Source: Magnetovibrio sp. (GTDB taxonomy: Bacteria; Pseudomonadota; Alphaproteobacteria; Rhodospirillales; Magnetovibrionaceae). From it: DNA of 18,548 nucleotides. A program made the translations under genes and the position numbers. Below, in pieces: positions 1-18,125 of this stretch (positions within the stretch are counted from its first letter, which is position 1; each line of letters opens with the position of its first letter). The stretch is taken from assembly GCA_016763895.1 (NCBI GenBank), contig JAESSV010000086.1:1-18548 (forward strand), in the 5' to 3' direction. Under the pieces are notes generated by a model. The model worked only from the letters and a program-made list of their open reading frames with translations. It was not told where the DNA came from and did not search any database.

Positions 1-1781
1 ACGGTTCTATGTTGATGTATGCCCTGTTGTATCTTTCAGGTGTTGATGACATTACCATGCAAGATCTGAAAAATTTCCGCAAAATGGGGCCTAAAACAGC
101 GGGTCACCCAGAATACGGTCACATTGACGGCATCGAAACCACCACGGGTCCATTGGGACAAGGCATCACCACGGCTGTGGGCATGGCTTTGGCTGAAAAG
201 ATGCAAGCCGATCGTTATGGTGACGACATTGTGGATCACTACACCTACACCATTTGTGGTGATGGCTGTTTGATGGAAGGTATTTCCCAAGAAGCCATTT
301 CCATGGCGGGTCACTTAAATTTAAGCAAGTTGATCGTTCCTTGGGATGACAACGAAATCTGCATCGATGGCAACACCAACCTGACTTTGATCGACGATCA
401 ATGTGCACGTTTCGAAGCCTCTGGCTGGGATACACAAGCCATTGACGGTCATGATCCGGTGGCCATTGAAGCCGCGCTTAAAAAAGCAAAATCGTCTGGC
501 AAGCCTTCTATGATCGCTTGCAAAACCATAATTGGTTTTGGCGCACCGACAAAAGCCGGCACCCACTCTGTTCATGGTGCGGCCCTTGGTGACGAAGAAA
601 TCCAAGGCATGCGCGACAAATTGGGCTGGACGGCCGAGCCATTCGTTATTCCTGATAACATTTTGAAAGCTTGGCGTTCTGCCATGGCCAGAAATGCTGA
701 CGATCATACCGCTTGGGATGCTCGCCTGAATGCTTTGAGCGCGCCTAAAAAATCTGAATTCGTGCGCACCGACGCTGGCATCTTGCCCGAAGGTTGGGAA
801 GACAAGCTGAACGCGTTCAAAAAAGCCACAGCCGAAGACCATCCTAAACTCGCGACCCGTCAGGCTTCGGGTAAAGTTTTGGAAGTCCTCACCGCGGCTA
901 TTCCTGAAATGCTTGGTGGTTCTGCTGATCTTACAGGGTCCGTCAACACCAAAACATCGTCAACACCATCTCTGTTGAACACGGACTTCTCTGGTCGTTA
1001 CATTCACTATGGTGTGCGTGAGCATGCGATGAGTGCGGTGATGAACGGTTTGTCACTGCATGGCGGGTTCATTCCGTATGCGGGAACGTTCGTCATGTTT
1101 GCCAATTACATGATGGGCGGCATTCGCTTGTCGGCGCTTATGGGCAAACGTGTGGTTTATGTTTTGACCCACGATTCAATTGGTTTGGGCGAAGACGGTC
1201 CAACCCATCAACCCATCGAAACATTGCCAATGTTGCGGTCCATGCCAAACTTTAACACCATGCGTCCTTGCGACGTTGTTGAAACGGCGGAATGCTGGGC
1301 AATTGCTTTGAAATCAGACAAAACCCCAACGGGCATGATGTTGACTCGTCAAGGTTTGGCGCCACAACGCCACACCCACACCGACGAAAACTTGTGTGCT
1401 AAGGGCGCTTATGTTTTGGCTGAAGGCGAAGGCGGCGACCGCAAGGTAACGTTGCTGGCATCTGGTTCCGAAGTCGAAATCGCTGTTGCCGATCGCGAAA
1501 CTTTGCAAGCTGAAGGCATTTCAACGGCTGTTGTATCCATGCCATGTTGGGAACTGTTTGACGCACAAGACGATGCATACCGCGCGTCTGTTTTGGGTGA
1601 AGGCACCGCTCGTGTCGGCGTCGAAGCGGCTTTGCGCTTTGGTTGGGACAAGTATCTTGGAATTGAAGGTGGCTTTGTCGGCATGACCGGCTTTGGCGCT
1701 TCGGCTCCCGCACCTGATCTTTACAAACATTTTGGTATTACGGCTGAAAACGTGGTTACAGAAGCAAAAGCTCGTCTGTAA
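1..1781 (+). CDS. cbbT: Transketolase (CBB cycle / pentose phosphate), 5' end cut off by window
   Basis: Transketolase moves two-carbon ketol units between sugar phosphates using thiamine diphosphate; in the Calvin cycle it helps regenerate ribulose bisphosphate. The frame is already open at base 3 and begins inside the conserved GHGSML segment (G-S-M-L visible), so about 65-70 N-terminal residues lie left of the window and the ATG at 9 is internal. Visible family features are the ThDP motif beginning GDGCLMEG and ending DDN, the active-site segment GTHSVHG, the G-V-R-E-H-A-M segment carrying the catalytic glutamate, and HDSIGLGEDGPTHQP in the pyrimidine-binding domain. The frame closes with TAA at 1779. 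The aldolase gene follows after 50 bp, the usual cbbT-cbbA order, and the two are probably cotranscribed. The family is certain; the name cbbT rather than tktA rests on the cbb neighbourhood. Confidence 0.95.
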   Translation, partial: GSMLMYALLYLSGVDDITMQDLKNFRKMGPKTAGHPEYGHIDGIETTTGPLGQGITTAVGMALAEKMQADRYGDDIVDHYTYTICGDGCLMEGISQEAISMAGHLNLSKLIVPWDDNEICIDGNTNLTLIDDQCARFEASGWDTQAIDGHDPVAIEAALKKAKSSGKPSMIACKTIIGFGAPTKAGTHSVHGAALGDEEIQGMRDKLGWTAEPFVIPDNILKAWRSAMARNADDHTAWDARLNALSAPKKSEFVRTDAGILPEGWEDKLNAFKKATAEDHPKLATRQASGKVLEVLTAAIPEMLGGSADLTGSVNTKTSSTPSLLNTDFSGRYIHYGVREHAMSAVMNGLSLHGGFIPYAGTFVMFANYMMGGIRLSALMGKRVVYVLTHDSIGLGEDGPTHQPIETLPMLRSMPNFNTMRPCDVVETAECWAIALKSDKTPTGMMLTRQGLAPQRHTHTDENLCAKGAYVLAEGEGGDRKVTLLASGSEVEIAVADRETLQAEGISTAVVSMPCWELFDAQDDAYRASVLGEGTARVGVEAALRFGWDKYLGIEGGFVGMTGFGASAPAPDLYKHFGITAENVVTEAKARL

Positions 1782-1831
1782 TCTTTTTCGTCATAAAAAT
1801 AACGTTTTAACTTTTTAAAGGAGTGAGAAAA

Positions 1832-2896
1832 ATGGCTCTCGTAACCATGCGCCAACTTCTCGATCACGCTGCAGAAAACAACTATGGTCTGCCTGCGTTC
1901 AACGTCAATAACATGGAACAAGTCAAAGCGATTATGGTCGCGGCGGATGCTGTGAACAGTCCTGTGATCCTTCAGGGGTCTGCGGGTGCTCGCGGTTATG
2001 CCGGCGAAACGTTCCTGCGTCACTTGATTTTGGCGGCTATTGAAGCTTATCCACACATTCCCGTGTGCATGCACCAAGATCACGGCGCGTCTCCGGACGT
2101 GTGCCAACGTTCCATTCAATCTGGATTTTCATCTGTGATGATGGACGGATCACTAGAAGCTGATGGCAAAACCCCATCGTCTTATGAATATAACGTCGAT
2201 ACAACACGCCAAGTGGTCGATATGGCCCACGCGTGTGGCGTTTCTGTTGAAGGTGAATTGGGCTGCTTGGGCTCACTTGAAACCGGCGAAGCTGGCGAAG
2301 AAGACGGCCAAGGCGCTGAAGGCAAGCTGGACATGGATCAAATGTTAACCGATCCAGACGAAGCTGCTGATTTCGTCAAGAAAACCAACGTTGACGCGCT
2401 TGCGATTGCGATTGGTACGTCTCATGGGGCTTACAAGTTTACCCAAGAACCAACCGGCAAAGTTTTGCGCATCGACCGGGTTAAAGAAATCCACGACCGC
2501 ATTCCGTCTGTTCACCTTGTTATGCACGGGTCCAGCTCGGTTCCCCAAGACTGGCTGAAAATCATCAACGATTTCGGTGGTGATATGGCTCAAACCTATG
2601 GTGTGCCAACAACGGAAACCGTTGAAGGCATCAAATCTGGTGTTCGCAAAGTTAACATCGACACCGATTTGCGCATGGCGTCTACGGGTTCTGTGCGTCG
2701 TCATTTGCACGACAACCCATCCAACTTTGACCCCCGCAAGTTCTTGGCCGAAGCCACCAAAGGCATGACGGACATCTGCAAAAACCGCTACGAAGCGTTC
2801 GGTTCTGCGGGCCATGCATCTGAAATCACAGCAAAATCACTCGAAGTTATGTTCAGTGAATACGCTTCTGGTTCTTTGGACGCGAAAGTCAGCTAA
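1832..2896 (+). CDS. cbbA: Class II fructose-1,6-bisphosphate aldolase (CbbA type)
   Basis: This zinc-dependent aldolase joins or splits dihydroxyacetone phosphate with glyceraldehyde-3-phosphate or erythrose-4-phosphate, serving the Calvin cycle and gluconeogenesis. The product is 354 aa, normal for the class II enzyme of CBB clusters. The M-H-Q-D-H-G motif (residues 80-85) supplies the catalytic Asp83 and Zn ligand His84; further Zn ligands are His198 in GTSHGAYK and His232 in MHGSS. The N-I-D-T-D-L-R segment that binds phosphate is present. I chose the ATG at 1832 because GGAG at 1820-1823 lies 8 nt upstream; a GTG at 1823 in the same frame overlaps that Shine-Dalgarno sequence. It sits 50 bp after transketolase and is followed by a strong terminator, so the operon ends here. 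Confidence 0.96.
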
Positions 2897-9103: not shown

Positions 9104-9410
9104 TTATTGATCTGAAATAGCGGTCAAATATTTAATGATTGCGCTACGATCTCTTCCTTTTTTGACTTTTATATTCATAGTTGTTTTGCCCAGTTTATAC
9201 TTTTTTGCAAATTTCTTGGAATTGGTGATCCATTCGTCGATGCGTTCGGGAGTCCAAGTATGGGTCGCTCTTTGCATAGCTCTATAATTTTTGAAGTCAT
9301 CAACAGAACCAGCTCTGCGTCCGATGACTCTGTACAACGATGGGCCCATTTTGTGTCGGCCTTCTTGAATAGAGTGGCAACCTCTTGCAATGAATACGCT
9401 GCACAAAATA
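9104..9410 (-). pseudogene. Class I cytochrome c remnant, frameshifted in the haem motif
   Basis: Reading the minus strand, the frame from the CH pair (9379-9374) to TAA at 9104 gives CHSIQEGRHKMGPSL, then a Y-R-V-I-G-R-R-A-G block, T-W-T-P-E-R-I-D-E-W and K-T-T-M-N, a class I cytochrome c fold with axial ligands His (9376) and Met (9178). In that frame the first haem cysteine is missing (A-R-G-C-H). The neighbouring frame upstream reads I-H-C-K-R. Removing one base at about 9379-9380 joins them into C-K-R-C-H, a perfect CxxCH. There is no signal peptide upstream; that stretch instead runs into the start region of the divergent EamA gene. I infer a decayed gene for a periplasmic electron carrier with a frameshift and a lost N-terminus. 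A one-base sequencing error could explain the frameshift but not the missing signal peptide. Confidence 0.75.
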
Positions 9411-9476
9411 TGTAATTGTTTTGTGAAAATGATGTTTTGTATTGCGCCGGGCTTTAAGAGCGAACACAGTCTGTTT

Positions 9477-11367: not shown

Positions 11368-12452
11368 TTAGGGTTTATGCTTGCTGGGGACCGGTGGAAT
11401 GGGTTTGCCGTTTGTTCCCAACAGAACGGTCGTGGGGCGAGCCGGGGCGTAGTTGCGAAAATGGGGTTGGGCTTCAGCAGTGGGATTGGGTTGGGGCGCG
11501 GGTGGCGTTGGTGGTTTTGGCATATTTTGTGAACCCTGTTGGGACAAGGGTTCTCTTTTCAAGATCGATGTGGCTTCATTCAACAAGAAATCTTTGAAGG
11601 CCAGGGCGATGGGCGACAAACGTTTGCCTTTGCGATGCAAAACATGCCATTGCCGCATGATGGGAAAATGCAAAATGTCGGGCACGATCAATTGACCCAA
11701 TTGCAATTCATTTTGCACCGCATCCCGGCTCATGATGCCAAGGCCCAACCCGGCCTGAACACTTTGTTTGATGGCTTCGTCCGAGCTGACCTCCATACCC
11801 GTGGTCATTTCAATGCCGTGTTGCGTGAAGAAAAGCTCCATAGCCTTGCGCGTGCCAGAGCCTTCTTCGCGCACCAGAAAAATCTCATTTTCCAAGCGAT
11901 CCAGTTGAATGGATTTTTCGCGACCAAAGGGGTGTTCCTTCGGCGCAATCAAAACCAGAGGATTTTCCATAAACACGCCGCCTTCGATATCGGTTTCTTC
12001 GGGCGGGCGGCCCATGATCACCATATCGACTTCGTTGTTGATCAGCTGGGTGATCAGTTGTTCCCGGTTGGTCACATCTAATTTGACATTCACACCGGGG
12101 TAACGTTCATAAAAAATGCTCAACAGTTTCGGCGCAAAATAGTGGGCCGTGGTGGCAACAGAAATTCTCAACGTGCCCCGTTCCAAACCTTTTAAGCTGT
12201 CGAGGCCCGACCTTAAGTCTTCGAGCTGTTGCATGATTGCCCGGGCGTATTGGCGGACTTCCCGACCGGCTTCGGTGAGATAAATCTTTTTGCCCATTTG
12301 TTCAAATAAAGGCTGTCCGATTTGTTCTTCCAATTGCTTGACTTGCATGGACACAGCCGGTTGGGTAAGGTTCAATTCTTGCGCGGCTCGGGTGAAACTT
12401 AAATGGCGAGCAACGGTCTTGAAAGCCAGAATTGCTTAAGGGTTACATTCAT
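11368..12452 (-). pseudogene. cbbR: CbbR, LysR-type regulator of the cbb genes, with a one-base frameshift in the helix-turn-helix
   Basis: CbbR activates cbb promoters in response to metabolites. The frame ending at 11368 contains the LysR recognition helix region (L-T-Q-P-A-V-S-M-Q-V-K-Q-L-E-E) and a full substrate-binding domain, but its first usable start is a TTG at 12375, inside the helix-turn-helix. Upstream in the same frame the codons read F-K-T-V-A-R-H-L-S-F-T-R-A-A-Q-E-L, clearly the missing part, and then meet a stop at 12438. The expected N-terminus M-N-V-T-L-K-Q-F-W starts at the ATG at 12452 in another frame. The two parts join if one base is added near 12424-12427, giving about 361 aa. 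After the normal family end (about residue 305) there is an unusual Pro-rich tail of about 55 residues. Divergent placement from cbbM and the position of the LysR-type box support the name. Confidence 0.85.
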
Positions 12453-12495: not shown

Positions 12496-12531
12496 CTTAT
12501 AGCAAAACACACTAGCATAAGCAAACCTTAT
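12496..12531 (+). promoter_or_regulatory. Candidate CbbR operator in the cbbR-cbbM intergenic region
   Basis: The inverted repeat ATAAG-N5-CTTAT (12517-12531) has the spacing of a LysR-type recognition site. Another CTTAT lies at 12496-12500, about two helical turns from ATAAG, and related GTTAT and AATAA elements follow at 12536 and 12544. This is the place expected for CbbR between divergent cbbR and cbbM. Seen: the repeat. Inferred: that CbbR binds it. Confidence 0.55.
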
Positions 12532-12661
12532 ACTCGTTATCAAAATAAATGACTTTTTTTATGGGTTTTGTTTGGGTAATGTGCTGTTATTCGGGGGATC
12601 GTTAAAGTGACCCTTGACCAAAATTATATATGTAAAGAAACCTTTTAAGGAGAACTATAAA

Positions 12662-14050
12662 ATGGCTTTGTTAGATCAAACAAACCGTTATTCAGACCTA
12701 AGCCTGAGCGAAAAAGAATAGATCGACGGCGGCAATCACGTTCTTTGTGCGTATTTGATGAAACCTTCCGAAGGCCACGGTTACCTGGAAGCAGCGGCTC
12801 ACTTTGCTGCGGAAAGCTCCACCGGAACAAACGTTGAAGTGTCCACCACGGATGACTTCACCAAAGGTGTTGACGCGCTGGTCTACGAAATTGACGAAGC
12901 CAACGAAATCATGAAGATCGCTTTTCCAAGTGATTTGTTTGACCGCAATATCACAGACGGTCGTGCCATGATTGTTTCTTTCTTGACCTTGGCCATTGGG
13001 AACAACCAAGGCATGGGCGACATTGCTTATGCTAAAATGTTGGACTTTTATGTTCCTCCTGCGTACTTGCGTTTGTTCGACGGTCCAGCAAAAGACATCT
13101 CCGATCTTTGGCGCATTTTGGGTCGTCCGATTGTTGATGGTGGTTACATTTCTGGTACCATTATTAAGCCTAAACTGGGTCTGCGTCCGAAACCTTTTGC
13201 TGAAGCGGCTTACCAGTTCTGGCTGGGCGGCGACTTTATCAAAAACGATGAACCCCAAGGCAACCAGGTTTTCGCTCCCATGCGCGAAACCATTCCTTTG
13301 GTTTATGACGCCATGAAACGGGCTCAAGACGAAACCGGCGAAGCAAAGTTGTTCTCGGCAAACATTACGGCTGATGATCACTATGAAATGCTCGCACGCG
13401 GCGAATTCATCCTTGAAACATTCGGCCCTGACGCTGATAAAGTTGCCTTCTTGGTTGACGGTTATGTGGGTGGACCGGGCATGATTACGACCGCTCGTCG
13501 TAACTTTGCGGGTCAATACTTGCATTATCACCGCGCTGGACACGGTGCTGTGACGTCACCTTCTGCGAAACGCGGTTACACGGCATTCGTTCTTGCGAAA
13601 ATGTCTCGTTTGCAAGGGGCTTCTGGTATCCACGTGGGCACCATGGGTTACGGCAAAATGGAAGGCGAGAAATCCGATACAGACATCGCTTACATGATCG
13701 AACGTGATTCAGCAGATGGTCCTTTCTATCACCAAGAATGGCAGGGCATGAAGCCGACCACGCCAATTATTTCTGGTGGTATGAACGCTCTGCGTTTGCC
13801 TGGTTTCTTTGAAAACCTGGGCCATGCCAACTTGATCAACACGGCTGGTGGTGGGGCTTATGGTCACATCGACAGCCCGGCGGCTGGTGCGATTTCTCTT
13901 CGCCAGGCTTACGAATGCTGGAAAGCGGGTGCTGATCCTATTGAATGGGCGAAAGAACACAAAGAGTTTGCTCGTGCGTTCGAAAGCTTTGAACACGATG
14001 CCGACAGCATCTTCCCCGGTTGGCGCGAAAAATTGGGCGTGCACAAATAA
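12662..14050 (+). pseudogene. cbbM: Form II RuBisCO large subunit, interrupted by in-frame TAG at codon 20
   Basis: RuBisCO carboxylates ribulose-1,5-bisphosphate; form II works as large-subunit dimers without small subunits. The ATG at 12662 has AAGGAGA at 12647-12653, near-ideal spacing. Codons 1-19 read MALLDQTNRYSDLSLSEKE, codon 20 is TAG (12719-12721), and the same frame continues [11 protein letters not shown] to TAA at 14048: 462 codons before the stop, close to the 466 aa of the Rhodospirillum rubrum enzyme. Relatives have Leu at the TAG, so TTG to TAG by one base (12720) is the simplest change. All active-site parts are present: GTIIKPKLG, the carbamylated-Lys motif [16 protein letters not shown], loop 6 GKMEGE and SGGMNAL. 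Restart at TTG 12755 or ATG 12758 would lose the first 31-32 residues including a core strand, and no ribosome binding site is visible there. Confidence 0.93.
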
Positions 14051-14163: not shown

Positions 14164-14973
14164 ATGTCTGATGTTGAACAATACTTGATCAAAGATGAGC
14201 CTTTTTACCAAGCCGTTGGCAATGAGGTTGACCTTTACGAAGCCGCTTATTCAGAACGCTTGCCGGTGATGGTCAAAGGCCCTACGGGCTGTGGCAAGTC
14301 ACGGTTTATCGAATATATGGCTTGGAAGCTTAAAAAACCGCTGATCACTGTGGCGTGTAACGAAGACATGACAGCCAGTGATTTGGTGGGACGATATTTA
14401 TTAGACGCCAATGGCACGCGTTGGCTGGATGGTCCCTTGACCGTTGCGGCGCGCCTGGGCGCCATTTGCTATTTGGATGAAGTGGTCGAAGCCCGCCAAG
14501 ACACGACGGTGGTCATTCACCCGCTGACCGATCACCGCCGCACTTTGCCTTTGGACAAAAAGGGCGAATTGGTGAATGCTCACGAAGATTTCCAATTGGT
14601 GATTTCTTACAATCCGGGTTACCAAAGCTTGATGAAAGACTTGAAACAGTCCACCAAGCAACGCTTTTCCGGGCTTAATTTTGATTATGCTTCTGGCAAA
14701 CTGGAAGCCGAAATTGTGACCAAAGAAACGGGGATTGATTTAAGCACCGCAACTAAATTGGTGAAAATCGGTGAAACCGCTCGTAATTTGAAGGGCCACG
14801 GCCTTGATGAAGGCATTTCCACCCGTTTGTTGGTTTACGCAGCCCGTTTGATTAAACGCGGCATTAGCCCCAATGATGCTTGCCGCATGGCTATGGTGGC
14901 CCCGATTACCGATGATATGGACATTGCCGCCACGCTAAAGCACGCCATTGACGCCGTATTTGGTCAGAAATAG
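14164..14973 (+). CDS. cbbQ: CbbQ, AAA+ ATPase of the RuBisCO activase complex
   Basis: CbbQ is a hexameric MoxR-type AAA+ ATPase that works with CbbO to pull inhibitory sugar phosphates out of RuBisCO. The product is 269 aa, normal length. Walker A is GPTGCGKS (39-46), Walker B is C-Y-L-D-E (102-106), the sensor-1 region is S-Y-N-P-G (Asn150) and the arginine finger candidate is in K-Q-R-F-S (Arg167). The start is an ATG with a weak AGAAAG upstream. It follows cbbM by 113 bp across the hairpin and ends in TAG 11 bp before cbbO, so Q and O are one unit. The frame is intact, in contrast to cbbM and cbbR. Confidence 0.95.
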   Translation: MSDVEQYLIKDEPFYQAVGNEVDLYEAAYSERLPVMVKGPTGCGKSRFIEYMAWKLKKPLITVACNEDMTASDLVGRYLLDANGTRWLDGPLTVAARLGAICYLDEVVEARQDTTVVIHPLTDHRRTLPLDKKGELVNAHEDFQLVISYNPGYQSLMKDLKQSTKQRFSGLNFDYASGKLEAEIVTKETGIDLSTATKLVKIGETARNLKGHGLDEGISTRLLVYAARLIKRGISPNDACRMAMVAPITDDMDIAATLKHAIDAVFGQK

Positions 14974-14984
14974 GGCTTTTCGCC

Positions 14985-17243
14985 ATGACGCTGAGCCAAG
15001 CCGAACTTGACGACTTCAGATCCTTGCTGACCTGCGGGTTTGAACAATTGGATGTGGCGTTTGCGGGATGCATGGAAGATGCGGTCACGCGCCTTAGTCC
15101 TGAGGGCGTGATCAAGTTGTTAGAAGGCGGGTCGTTGATTGGCATGATCGGGCGGGGCTATGAGCCCGTTCAGGTCTATCTTGAAGAAATGCCAGAAATT
15201 GCCCAGAATTTAGGCGAAGACACCCTTGAAACCGTGAGCAAAGCGGTTTGGAAATTGTCGCGCACGCCCAATGGCAAGGGAATATTGGCGTTTCTGCAAA
15301 CCCTGGGCGAAGCCGCAAGGCGTTTGCGGGCTCATGACCTTTTTGAAGATTATATCAAAATTGCTTTCGATATGGGAGACGGCACGGCGCGGTCGGTTCA
15401 TGGCAAAATTCCCACCATTCCCAGCCCCGGTTTCGTCTCTTTTTTAAATCAAATGCCGTATATGCTGAACCAATTGTCGTTGGATGGTATTCGCAATTGG
15501 ATGGAATACGGCGTAAAGCACTATTTTACCCACCCCGAACGCCAAATTGATTATTTCACGCTGCAATCGGCGGATTCCAAGGCCATCATGCAACGGGAAC
15601 GCCACGGCACATTGTTCACGGATGTGGAACGCAAACTGGGCCTGTACATGAAGGCCTTGTGGGAAGAAAAAACGCACTTTATCCCGTATTCCATGGGCTT
15701 TGATGAATTGCGCAAGCCTCAGCCCTATTTCGATGAACTCGGCATTCGGGTGCCGGATGTTTATGACGACAAGGATGGCGTGCGGGGCATCGACCGGTAC
15801 CGCGCCATGTTGGGCCATATGGCGGCACACAGGCGTTGGACCAAAGCTATTTTTGCCGATAACTTCAGCCCTTTTCAACGGGTTGCGGCTGAATTATTTG
15901 AAGATTCACGCGTCGAATACTTGATGATGCGGACCTATCCGGGCATGCGGGGCTTGTATCAAAAATTACACCCCAAGCCGGTTGAAGGGTCCGTTGACCC
16001 GGACAAAGAATCCACCATTCGCCATCGTCTGGCTATGGTTTCCTACGCCATGCTGGATGAAAATCATGGCTATCAGGATCCAGATTTGCTGGATTTTGTG
16101 GATCGCTTTCATGACATGATGGAAGACAGTGATGCTTCGACCCAAGAGGTCGCGACCTTGGCCATTCAATACATTGCCCGCACCCGGCGCCAAAATGATG
16201 CGTCCGCCAATGTTTGTTTTACCGACACCGAAGTCGATTATCGGGATGATAATCGCCACATGTGGAAGTTTTATGAGCTTGGCGATGAAGAAGAAATGTT
16301 TGAAGAACACGACAAAACCAAGTCTAAGGAAGAAGACGAAGCTCAAGGTTTGCCCCCGCGTCATTACAAAGAATGGGATTACGTATCCAAGACTTACCGT
16401 CCGGATTGGGTCAGTTTGTATGAAAGCTTGCACCCACCGGGACCGGTTTCTTGTATTGATGATATTTTGTCCAAACATGCGGCTTTGGCCAAGCGCTTGA
16501 AACAAATTCTGGATATGTTGAAACCTCAACAAACCGTGCGCATTCGTTATCAGGAAGAGGGCACAGAGCTGGACTTAGATGTTGCTATTCGGGCCTTAAT
16601 CGACCTCAAAGCCGGATCTATGCCGGATTCCCGCATCAACATGAGCCATAAAACCGATGGTCGTGACATTGCGGTGTCTCTGCTTTTGGATTTGTCTCAA
16701 TCTGTGAACGAAATCCCCGAGGGCAGCACACAGTCGATTCTAGAGCTGTCCCAAGAAGCCGTGACCCTTTTGGGGTGGGCCATTGGGCACTTGGGCGATG
16801 ATTTCGCCATTGCCGGATTTTCATCCAACACCCGTCATGAAGTTCGCTATCAACACATCAAAGGCTTTTCCGAAGACTGGAACGATGAAGTCAAAGGACG
16901 TTTGGCCGGGATTGAGGCTGGTTATTCGACGCGGATGGGGGCTGCTTTGCGCCATGCCGGTCATACCCTTGCCTCGCGAAAGGCTGATAAAAAGCTGTTG
17001 TTGGTGTTAACGGATGGCGAGCCTGCGGATATTGATGTGGACGATGAGCAATATTTGATCCAAGACGCGCACAAAGCCGTGCAAGAGCTGGATCAAGATG
17101 GAATCTACACGTATTGCATTAATTTAGACTCCAAAGCAGACGAATATGTCGGTGATATTTTTGGAAACCAGTTCACCGTGATCGATAATATCGACCGTTT
17201 ACCAGAAAAATTGCCTCAATTGTTCCTATCTTTGACAAAATAA
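14985..17243 (+). CDS. cbbO: CbbO, von Willebrand A-domain subunit of the RuBisCO activase complex
   Basis: CbbO is the adaptor of the CbbQ ring: its C-terminal VWA domain recognises RuBisCO while the N-terminal part docks on CbbQ. The product is 752 aa, close to usual. The MIDAS motif is D-L-S-Q-S (Asp569, Ser571, Ser573), with Thr649 in Y-S-T-R and Asp677 in L-T-D-G-E as the other metal-site residues. An acidic, low-complexity linker (about 433-455, rich in E, D and K) separates the helical N-terminal region from the rest. The start ATG at 14985 lies 11 bp after the cbbQ stop, with only a weak AGGG upstream; translation coupling is likely. The frame is complete, ending in TAA. Confidence 0.93.
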   Translation: MTLSQAELDDFRSLLTCGFEQLDVAFAGCMEDAVTRLSPEGVIKLLEGGSLIGMIGRGYEPVQVYLEEMPEIAQNLGEDTLETVSKAVWKLSRTPNGKGILAFLQTLGEAARRLRAHDLFEDYIKIAFDMGDGTARSVHGKIPTIPSPGFVSFLNQMPYMLNQLSLDGIRNWMEYGVKHYFTHPERQIDYFTLQSADSKAIMQRERHGTLFTDVERKLGLYMKALWEEKTHFIPYSMGFDELRKPQPYFDELGIRVPDVYDDKDGVRGIDRYRAMLGHMAAHRRWTKAIFADNFSPFQRVAAELFEDSRVEYLMMRTYPGMRGLYQKLHPKPVEGSVDPDKESTIRHRLAMVSYAMLDENHGYQDPDLLDFVDRFHDMMEDSDASTQEVATLAIQYIARTRRQNDASANVCFTDTEVDYRDDNRHMWKFYELGDEEEMFEEHDKTKSKEEDEAQGLPPRHYKEWDYVSKTYRPDWVSLYESLHPPGPVSCIDDILSKHAALAKRLKQILDMLKPQQTVRIRYQEEGTELDLDVAIRALIDLKAGSMPDSRINMSHKTDGRDIAVSLLLDLSQSVNEIPEGSTQSILELSQEAVTLLGWAIGHLGDDFAIAGFSSNTRHEVRYQHIKGFSEDWNDEVKGRLAGIEAGYSTRMGAALRHAGHTLASRKADKKLLLVLTDGEPADIDVDDEQYLIQDAHKAVQELDQDGIYTYCINLDSKADEYVGDIFGNQFTVIDNIDRLPEKLPQLFLSLTK

Positions 17244-17465: not shown

Positions 17466-18125
17466 ATGACCGACACCATTAAAATCGCCCCATCCATTCT
17501 TGCCGCAGATTTTGCCCGTTTGGGCGAAGAAGTTAAAGCCATCGATGAAGCGGGTTGCGATTGGATTCATATTGATGTTATGGACGGTCACTTTGTGCCC
17601 AACCTAACCTTTGGCCCCCCCGTAATCTCTTGCATTCGGCCCTGGACCAAGAAATTCTTTGACGTTCACTTGATGATTGACCCGGCTCAGCCGTTTTTGG
17701 AAGACTATGCCAAAGCGGGTGCGGACCAAATCGTTGTTCACGCCGAAGCCGACAAGCATTTGGATCGGTCCATTCAGGTGATTAAAGGTCTTGGCAAAAA
17801 AGCGGGGGTTTCTTTGAACCCGCACACGCCTGTTAACGTTTTGGATCATGTTTTGGATCAACTTGATATGGTTTTGATCATGAGCGTAAATCCGGGCTTT
17901 GGGGGGCAAAGCTTCCTTCCTGCGGCTTTGGATAAAGTGCGTGCGGTCAAAGCCATGATCGGGGACCGCAATATCGACATTCAAGTCGACGGTGGGGTGA
18001 ACGCAAGCACGGCGAAAGCTGTTGTTGATGCCGGGGCAACGTGCCTTGTTGCGGGCTCTGCCGTGTTTAAAGGTGACGATTACGTGGCCAGCATCCAAGC
18101 CATTCGTGATGCTTATAATGCTTAA
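17466..18125 (+). CDS. rpe: Ribulose-phosphate 3-epimerase
   Basis: This enzyme interconverts ribulose-5-phosphate and xylulose-5-phosphate in the Calvin cycle and pentose phosphate pathway (cbbE in cbb clusters). The product is 219 aa, standard length. The TIM-barrel motifs are A-P-S-I-L-A-A-D-F near the start, the block [12 protein letters not shown] with His35 and Asp37, D-V-H-L-M (His68), [10 protein letters not shown], and Q-V-D-G-G-V with catalytic Asp175. GGAG at 17455-17458 is 7 nt before the ATG. It lies 222 bp after cbbO, probably with its own leader, and has a terminator behind it. Confidence 0.96.

Follow-up and report, generated by a model that had tools for sequence, protein, structure and literature searches.

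Organization of the cbb locus

We analyzed an 18,548-base stretch of DNA (hereafter the window), which is the complete contig C30 of a draft genome of 293 contigs and 1.94 Mb, with an estimated completeness of 59.41%. The window carries a form II RuBisCO gene (cbbM), a LysR-type regulator gene (cbbR) divergent from it, and further genes, listed below with the family models that they match.

3..1781, plus strand: transketolase gene, cut by the contig start (TIGR00232)
1823..2896, plus strand: class II fructose-bisphosphate aldolase gene, unbroken (TIGR01521)
11368..12452, minus strand: cbbR, LysR-type regulator gene divergent from cbbM, with its 5' piece and main part in different frames
12427..12434, minus strand: frame break of cbbR, position approximate, from the frame translations and the unbroken N-terminus of relatives
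12517..12531, no strand assigned: dyad ATAAG-N5-CTTAT between cbbR and cbbM, perfect in the window and in two of the four relatives checked
12647..12652, plus strand: AAGGAG, ribosome-binding site of cbbM, nine bases ahead of the ATG (read directly)
12662..14050, plus strand: cbbM, form II RuBisCO frame of 462 codons, one of them an internal TAG, followed by the stop (NF010002, PF02788, PF00016)
12719..12721, plus strand: in-frame TAG, codon 20 of cbbM, where the compared relatives have Leu
14164..14973, plus strand: cbbQ, unbroken, ending in TAG (PF08406 CbbQ_C, PF07728)
14985..17243, plus strand: gene of a cbbO-like VWA protein, unbroken (PF00092; no NCBIfam match)
17466..18125, plus strand: rpe, ribulose-phosphate 3-epimerase gene, unbroken (TIGR01163)

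The name CbbO for the product of the gene at 14985..17243 is presumed from its place beside cbbQ. The dyad between cbbR and cbbM is a probable CbbR operator. A PRK-like gene of the draft was open across 299 aligned residues. On the minus strand of the window, a remnant of a cytochrome c-550-like gene (9104-9424) matched NF043008 only over profile positions 39-96 of 131, far below the cut-off of this model, and neither the first heme-binding Cys nor a signal peptide was seen.

The in-frame TAG of cbbM

The cbbM frame begins with the ATG at 12662, is interrupted only by the TAG, and then stays open to the TAA at 14048-14050. A preliminary description of this DNA had reported an amber stop at codon 20 of an otherwise complete form II RuBisCO gene, preceded by a near-perfect ribosome-binding site and followed by 442 codons in the same frame with every catalytic motif intact. 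All of these points were confirmed in the sequence, and every stretch that we take to form the active site was readable in the translation. The product from Met33 onward scored 846.8 bits against NF010002, above the curated family cut-off of 489, and by family membership the predicted product is a form II RuBisCO. As assembled, the gene departs from an uninterrupted form II RuBisCO frame at codon 20. Judged from the sequence, 442 open codons of form II identity after a TAG are far beyond chance.

Codon 20 of cbbM in relatives

We searched 60 related genomes and kept 29 cbbM loci, of which two lacked a readable form II codon 20 (one 3' fragment and one distant form). Codon 20 encoded Leu in all of the remaining 27 loci, as CTN in 26 and as TTG in one. 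The protein comparison covered 116 proteins of 440-500 amino acids among the 120 matches listed of 4,361, and each of these proteins had Leu at the corresponding residue. The statement of the preliminary description that relatives carry Leu at the TAG site thus held for both the loci and the listed proteins. That description had also derived the TAG from TTG by a single base change. This account is plausible, since TTG encodes 17 of the 33 Leu residues of the window's cbbM, more than any other codon. It is uncertain because codon 20 is CTN in 26 of the 27 relatives, the two nearest among them.

The closest full-length protein among the matches listed was 93% identical to the window's cbbM product. 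The best cbbM identity in the search of genome contigs, which may omit the window's own genome, was 92%. No second sequence of the same species was seen among the listed protein matches, the genome contigs or the viral contigs; the best listed full-length relative being only 93% identical, no second assembly of the species was recognized. Among Rhodospirillales relatives, the cbbM products of MAG P6-1 (L048) and Magnetovibrio blakemorei MV-1 (L049) each showed 92% protein identity over 430 residues. Both loci resemble the window in DNA matches across cbbR, cbbM, cbbQ, the cbbO-like gene and rpe, and differ from it in that codon 20 of cbbM (in these loci, as L003 and L004) encodes Leu and the start of cbbR is intact.

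A strong cbbM match was found in 101 of 317 genomes of the order. Apart from the window's genome, only one of these 101 (G141) had an internal TAG in cbbM, in a search for stops that began at codon 21 and so left earlier stops in other genomes unscored. The G141 gene (L313, G141:C221, minus strand, match 1192-2574) resembles the window's cbbM in carrying a single TAG in an otherwise conserved gene. Its TAG lies at query position 268, where the window's protein has Tyr, and is therefore not a shared recoding site; a stop shared among relatives was rejected. No internal stop was found in the cbbM matches of the other genomes of the genus and family. The literature listings searched contained nothing on a premature stop codon in a cbbM gene for RuBisCO, and nothing on stops and frameshifts in metagenome-assembled genomes, whereas four entries concerned Magnetovibrio together with cbbM and RuBisCO.

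Sequence constraint on cbbM

We compared the window's cbbM with that of the congener P6-1 (L048). The dN was 0.056 and the dS 1.61, giving a dN/dS of about 0.035, and the differences at codon positions 1, 2 and 3 numbered 42, 21 and 203. At 292 columns with at least 97% conservation among the 116 listed proteins, the window's cbbM product departed once, as did the median relative. By these measures of its sequence, cbbM apart from the TAG is strongly constrained and not decaying. Neither the relaxed constraint nor the several lesions of a pseudogene were seen in cbbM, but a very young pseudogene would look alike. The earlier reasoning that a preserved frame means either a recent event or a bypassed codon remains valid at this dN/dS.

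A second lesion in cbbR

The cbbR gene also contains a break, which was absent from the preliminary description. The first seven residues are read from the ATG at 12452-12450, and the remainder from about 12426 in another frame. A cbbR N-terminus such as MHVTLRQLEAFIAVARHLSFTRAAEELNLSQPAVSMQ was unbroken in at least 41 matches in relatives, among which two loci appear twice. Because of the frame break near the start, the listed ORF (11368-12375) matched only part of the HTH domain, starting at position 23 of the profile. The CbbR model NF045990 was the best match of this truncated ORF, below the cut-off (238 of 450 bits). The cbbR break sits 290 bases from the TAG of cbbM.

Broken genes in the draft and in a congener

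The frequency of broken genes was compared between the draft (G000) and a 99%-complete genome of the same genus (G001). The draft sample consisted of 61 of the 293 contigs, including the window (419,477 bases), and the congener sample of about 1.07 Mb of G001, including L048. ORFs of G001 were aligned to the draft using tblastn, and the reciprocal comparison was performed on G001. On the draft, 101 genes were matched, with 81,444 bases aligned. Six draft genes were broken, each once: cbbM, cbbR and the four listed below, the family names having been assigned by scanning the intact genes of G001 that correspond to them against Pfam.

L131, near 3392: HlyD-family (HlyD-like) gene, TAA
L134, near 3350: lon, one-base frame change
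L135, near 4914: alanine dehydrogenase gene, one-base frame change
L226, near 10650: family 9 glycosyltransferase (heptosyltransferase) gene, one-base frame change

No clear break was found in the 107 genes (85,836 bases) of the reciprocal test. The difference between 6 of 101 and 0 of 107 genes gave a Fisher p of 0.012. The cbbR break was found by eye and the other five were flagged by the script, and the window received a closer reading than the rest of the sample; with the five script-flagged breaks, p was 0.026, and with the genes outside the window (4 of 93 against 0 of 107) it was 0.045, which is only just significant. Breaks thus occurred in unrelated genes of the draft, with no clear counterpart in the better congener. 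At the rate outside the window (4 breaks in 71,649 bases), the chance of a break in cbbM was 0.07, and that of two breaks in cbbR plus cbbM was about 0.009.

Several rows were set aside before counting. In the draft, these were TGA rows in L237 and L244, where the query ORFs were antisense to longer ORFs; a stop at 9982 of L226, where only two residues of the aligned query remain; a TAA before PRK in L035, ahead of the likely start; and four matches ending 26-36 residues short of the G001 ORF (the EamA gene of the window, L131, L139 and L237). In G001, the rows set aside were as follows: three of L216 and two of L284 were antisense to longer ORFs or to a 90-amino-acid frame, two rows in L217 lay just beyond the ends of the open frame, one row in L202 lay in a poorly matching stretch (by eye), and one row in L284 was a short end. 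A draft ORF of 503 amino acids (L237, 2121-3632, minus strand) corresponds to two frames in G001 (L284) and was counted for neither genome; it may reflect two genes, a fusion error in the draft, a break in G001 or a real difference.

Two draft tRNA genes are further signs of noise. In tRNA-Leu(GAG) (L047, 474-561), two acceptor-stem pairs were mismatched when read by eye. In tRNA-Arg(ACG) (L044, 1498-1574), also read by eye, the first T-loop position is C where the congener has T; a T at this position is nearly invariant in tRNAs. By contrast, among genes of an essential type, no stop was found in six tRNA-synt_1 matches or in one topoisomerase match of the draft, the latter partial because its contig seems to stop some 31 bases past the match. 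Therefore, no break is shown in a strictly essential gene.

Origin of the TAG

Three origins of the TAG had been offered in the preliminary description: loss of RuBisCO, readthrough and a sequence error. An error is the best supported of them, since unrelated genes of this draft are also broken, each at a single point; loss is the main rival, and readthrough received no further support. We consider that the TAG probably stems from an erroneous consensus base in a noisy and incomplete draft, itself probably metagenome-assembled or single-cell, and we infer that the assembly, not the cell, carries the error. The unbroken state of cbbQ, the cbbO-like gene, rpe and the aldolase gene, together with the intact constraint on cbbM, speaks for this. 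The organism itself would then have a normal cbb locus, with a cbbM that is complete and unremarkable for a form II RuBisCO gene. An assembly error, the likeliest explanation, is a rather ordinary one. The short distance between the cbbR and cbbM lesions counts against it and fits either real decay of the locus or locally poor sequence; nothing else favors a real event, or such local poor quality, as much as this clustering. Also against an error are the borderline contrast with G001 outside the window, the closer reading that the window received, and the essential-type matches, in which no stop was found.

A real and very recent nonsense mutation or strain variant, through which RuBisCO has just been lost, perhaps with its activator CbbR, is doubtful, at well below even chances. 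Two breaks so close together in the regulator and the enzyme of one pathway are improbable at the background rate calculated above, and the unbroken cbbQ, cbbO-like, rpe and aldolase genes are as expected if the loss is very recent. However, unrelated genes such as lon and the alanine dehydrogenase gene are also broken, cbbM shows no relaxed constraint, as would equally be the case in a very young pseudogene, and the cbbM matches of the other genomes of the genus and family contain no internal stop. If real, the event would show an autotroph in the act of losing carbon fixation, with cbbR and cbbM both hit. More likely, the lesson is a practical one: before an isolated stop in an important gene of an incomplete draft is given a biological reading, it should be weighed against how often genes are broken across that draft.

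Use of TAG as a stop codon

Suppression or readthrough of the amber codon would still yield full-length RuBisCO, perhaps in a controlled amount. The open and constrained frame after the TAG favors this, but TAG serves as an ordinary stop in the draft. We checked the stop codons of 62 draft genes, taken as ORFs of at least 100 amino acids that aligned to the end of the G001 ORF and not individually checked; 11 ended in TAG, 42 in TAA and 9 in TGA. In the window, cbbQ and the genes for a histidine kinase, an EamA transporter and a metallophosphoesterase end in TAG. Recoding would be expected to place a TAG at the same site in relatives, and none of the 27 loci and none of the 116 listed proteins had one. 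Global recoding of TAG was rejected, since TAG ends 11 of the 62 genes and the other breaks of the draft consist of a TAA and frameshifts, which are beyond the reach of amber suppression.

A search for a tRNA with a CUA anticodon had been suggested earlier. ARAGORN detected none among the 16 tRNAs of the draft, which is 59% complete, or among the 42 tRNAs of the 99%-complete G001. A search for PylS in five genomes of the genus, of which the window's own is 59% complete, found none. The gene for release factor 1 (prfA) was not found in the draft and scored over the cut-off in three of the four other genomes of the genus; its absence would agree with readthrough but is uninformative because the draft is 59% complete. 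With TAG in ordinary use, readthrough is left with the conserved frame as its positive support, and we regard it as very unlikely. A native amber codon with partial readthrough, yielding low and adjustable amounts of RuBisCO in a lineage that is abandoning autotrophy and whose CbbR is also broken, appears slightly less likely again.

Least credible of all is a restart of translation at Met33, whose ATG at 12758 lies 36 bases past the TAG and would give a shortened working enzyme: by eye, no purine-rich ribosome-binding site precedes this ATG, and the N-terminal domain match of the shortened protein begins only at profile position 20 of 120, while the compared relatives retain the part before it. 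In comparison with solved form II RuBisCO structures (e.g., 5c2c and 5rub), the part of the window's protein from Met33 matched almost to the chain end. The match began at chain residue 30-54 in the 17 best rows, and these solved chains therefore include the N-terminal segment that would be lost through the TAG.
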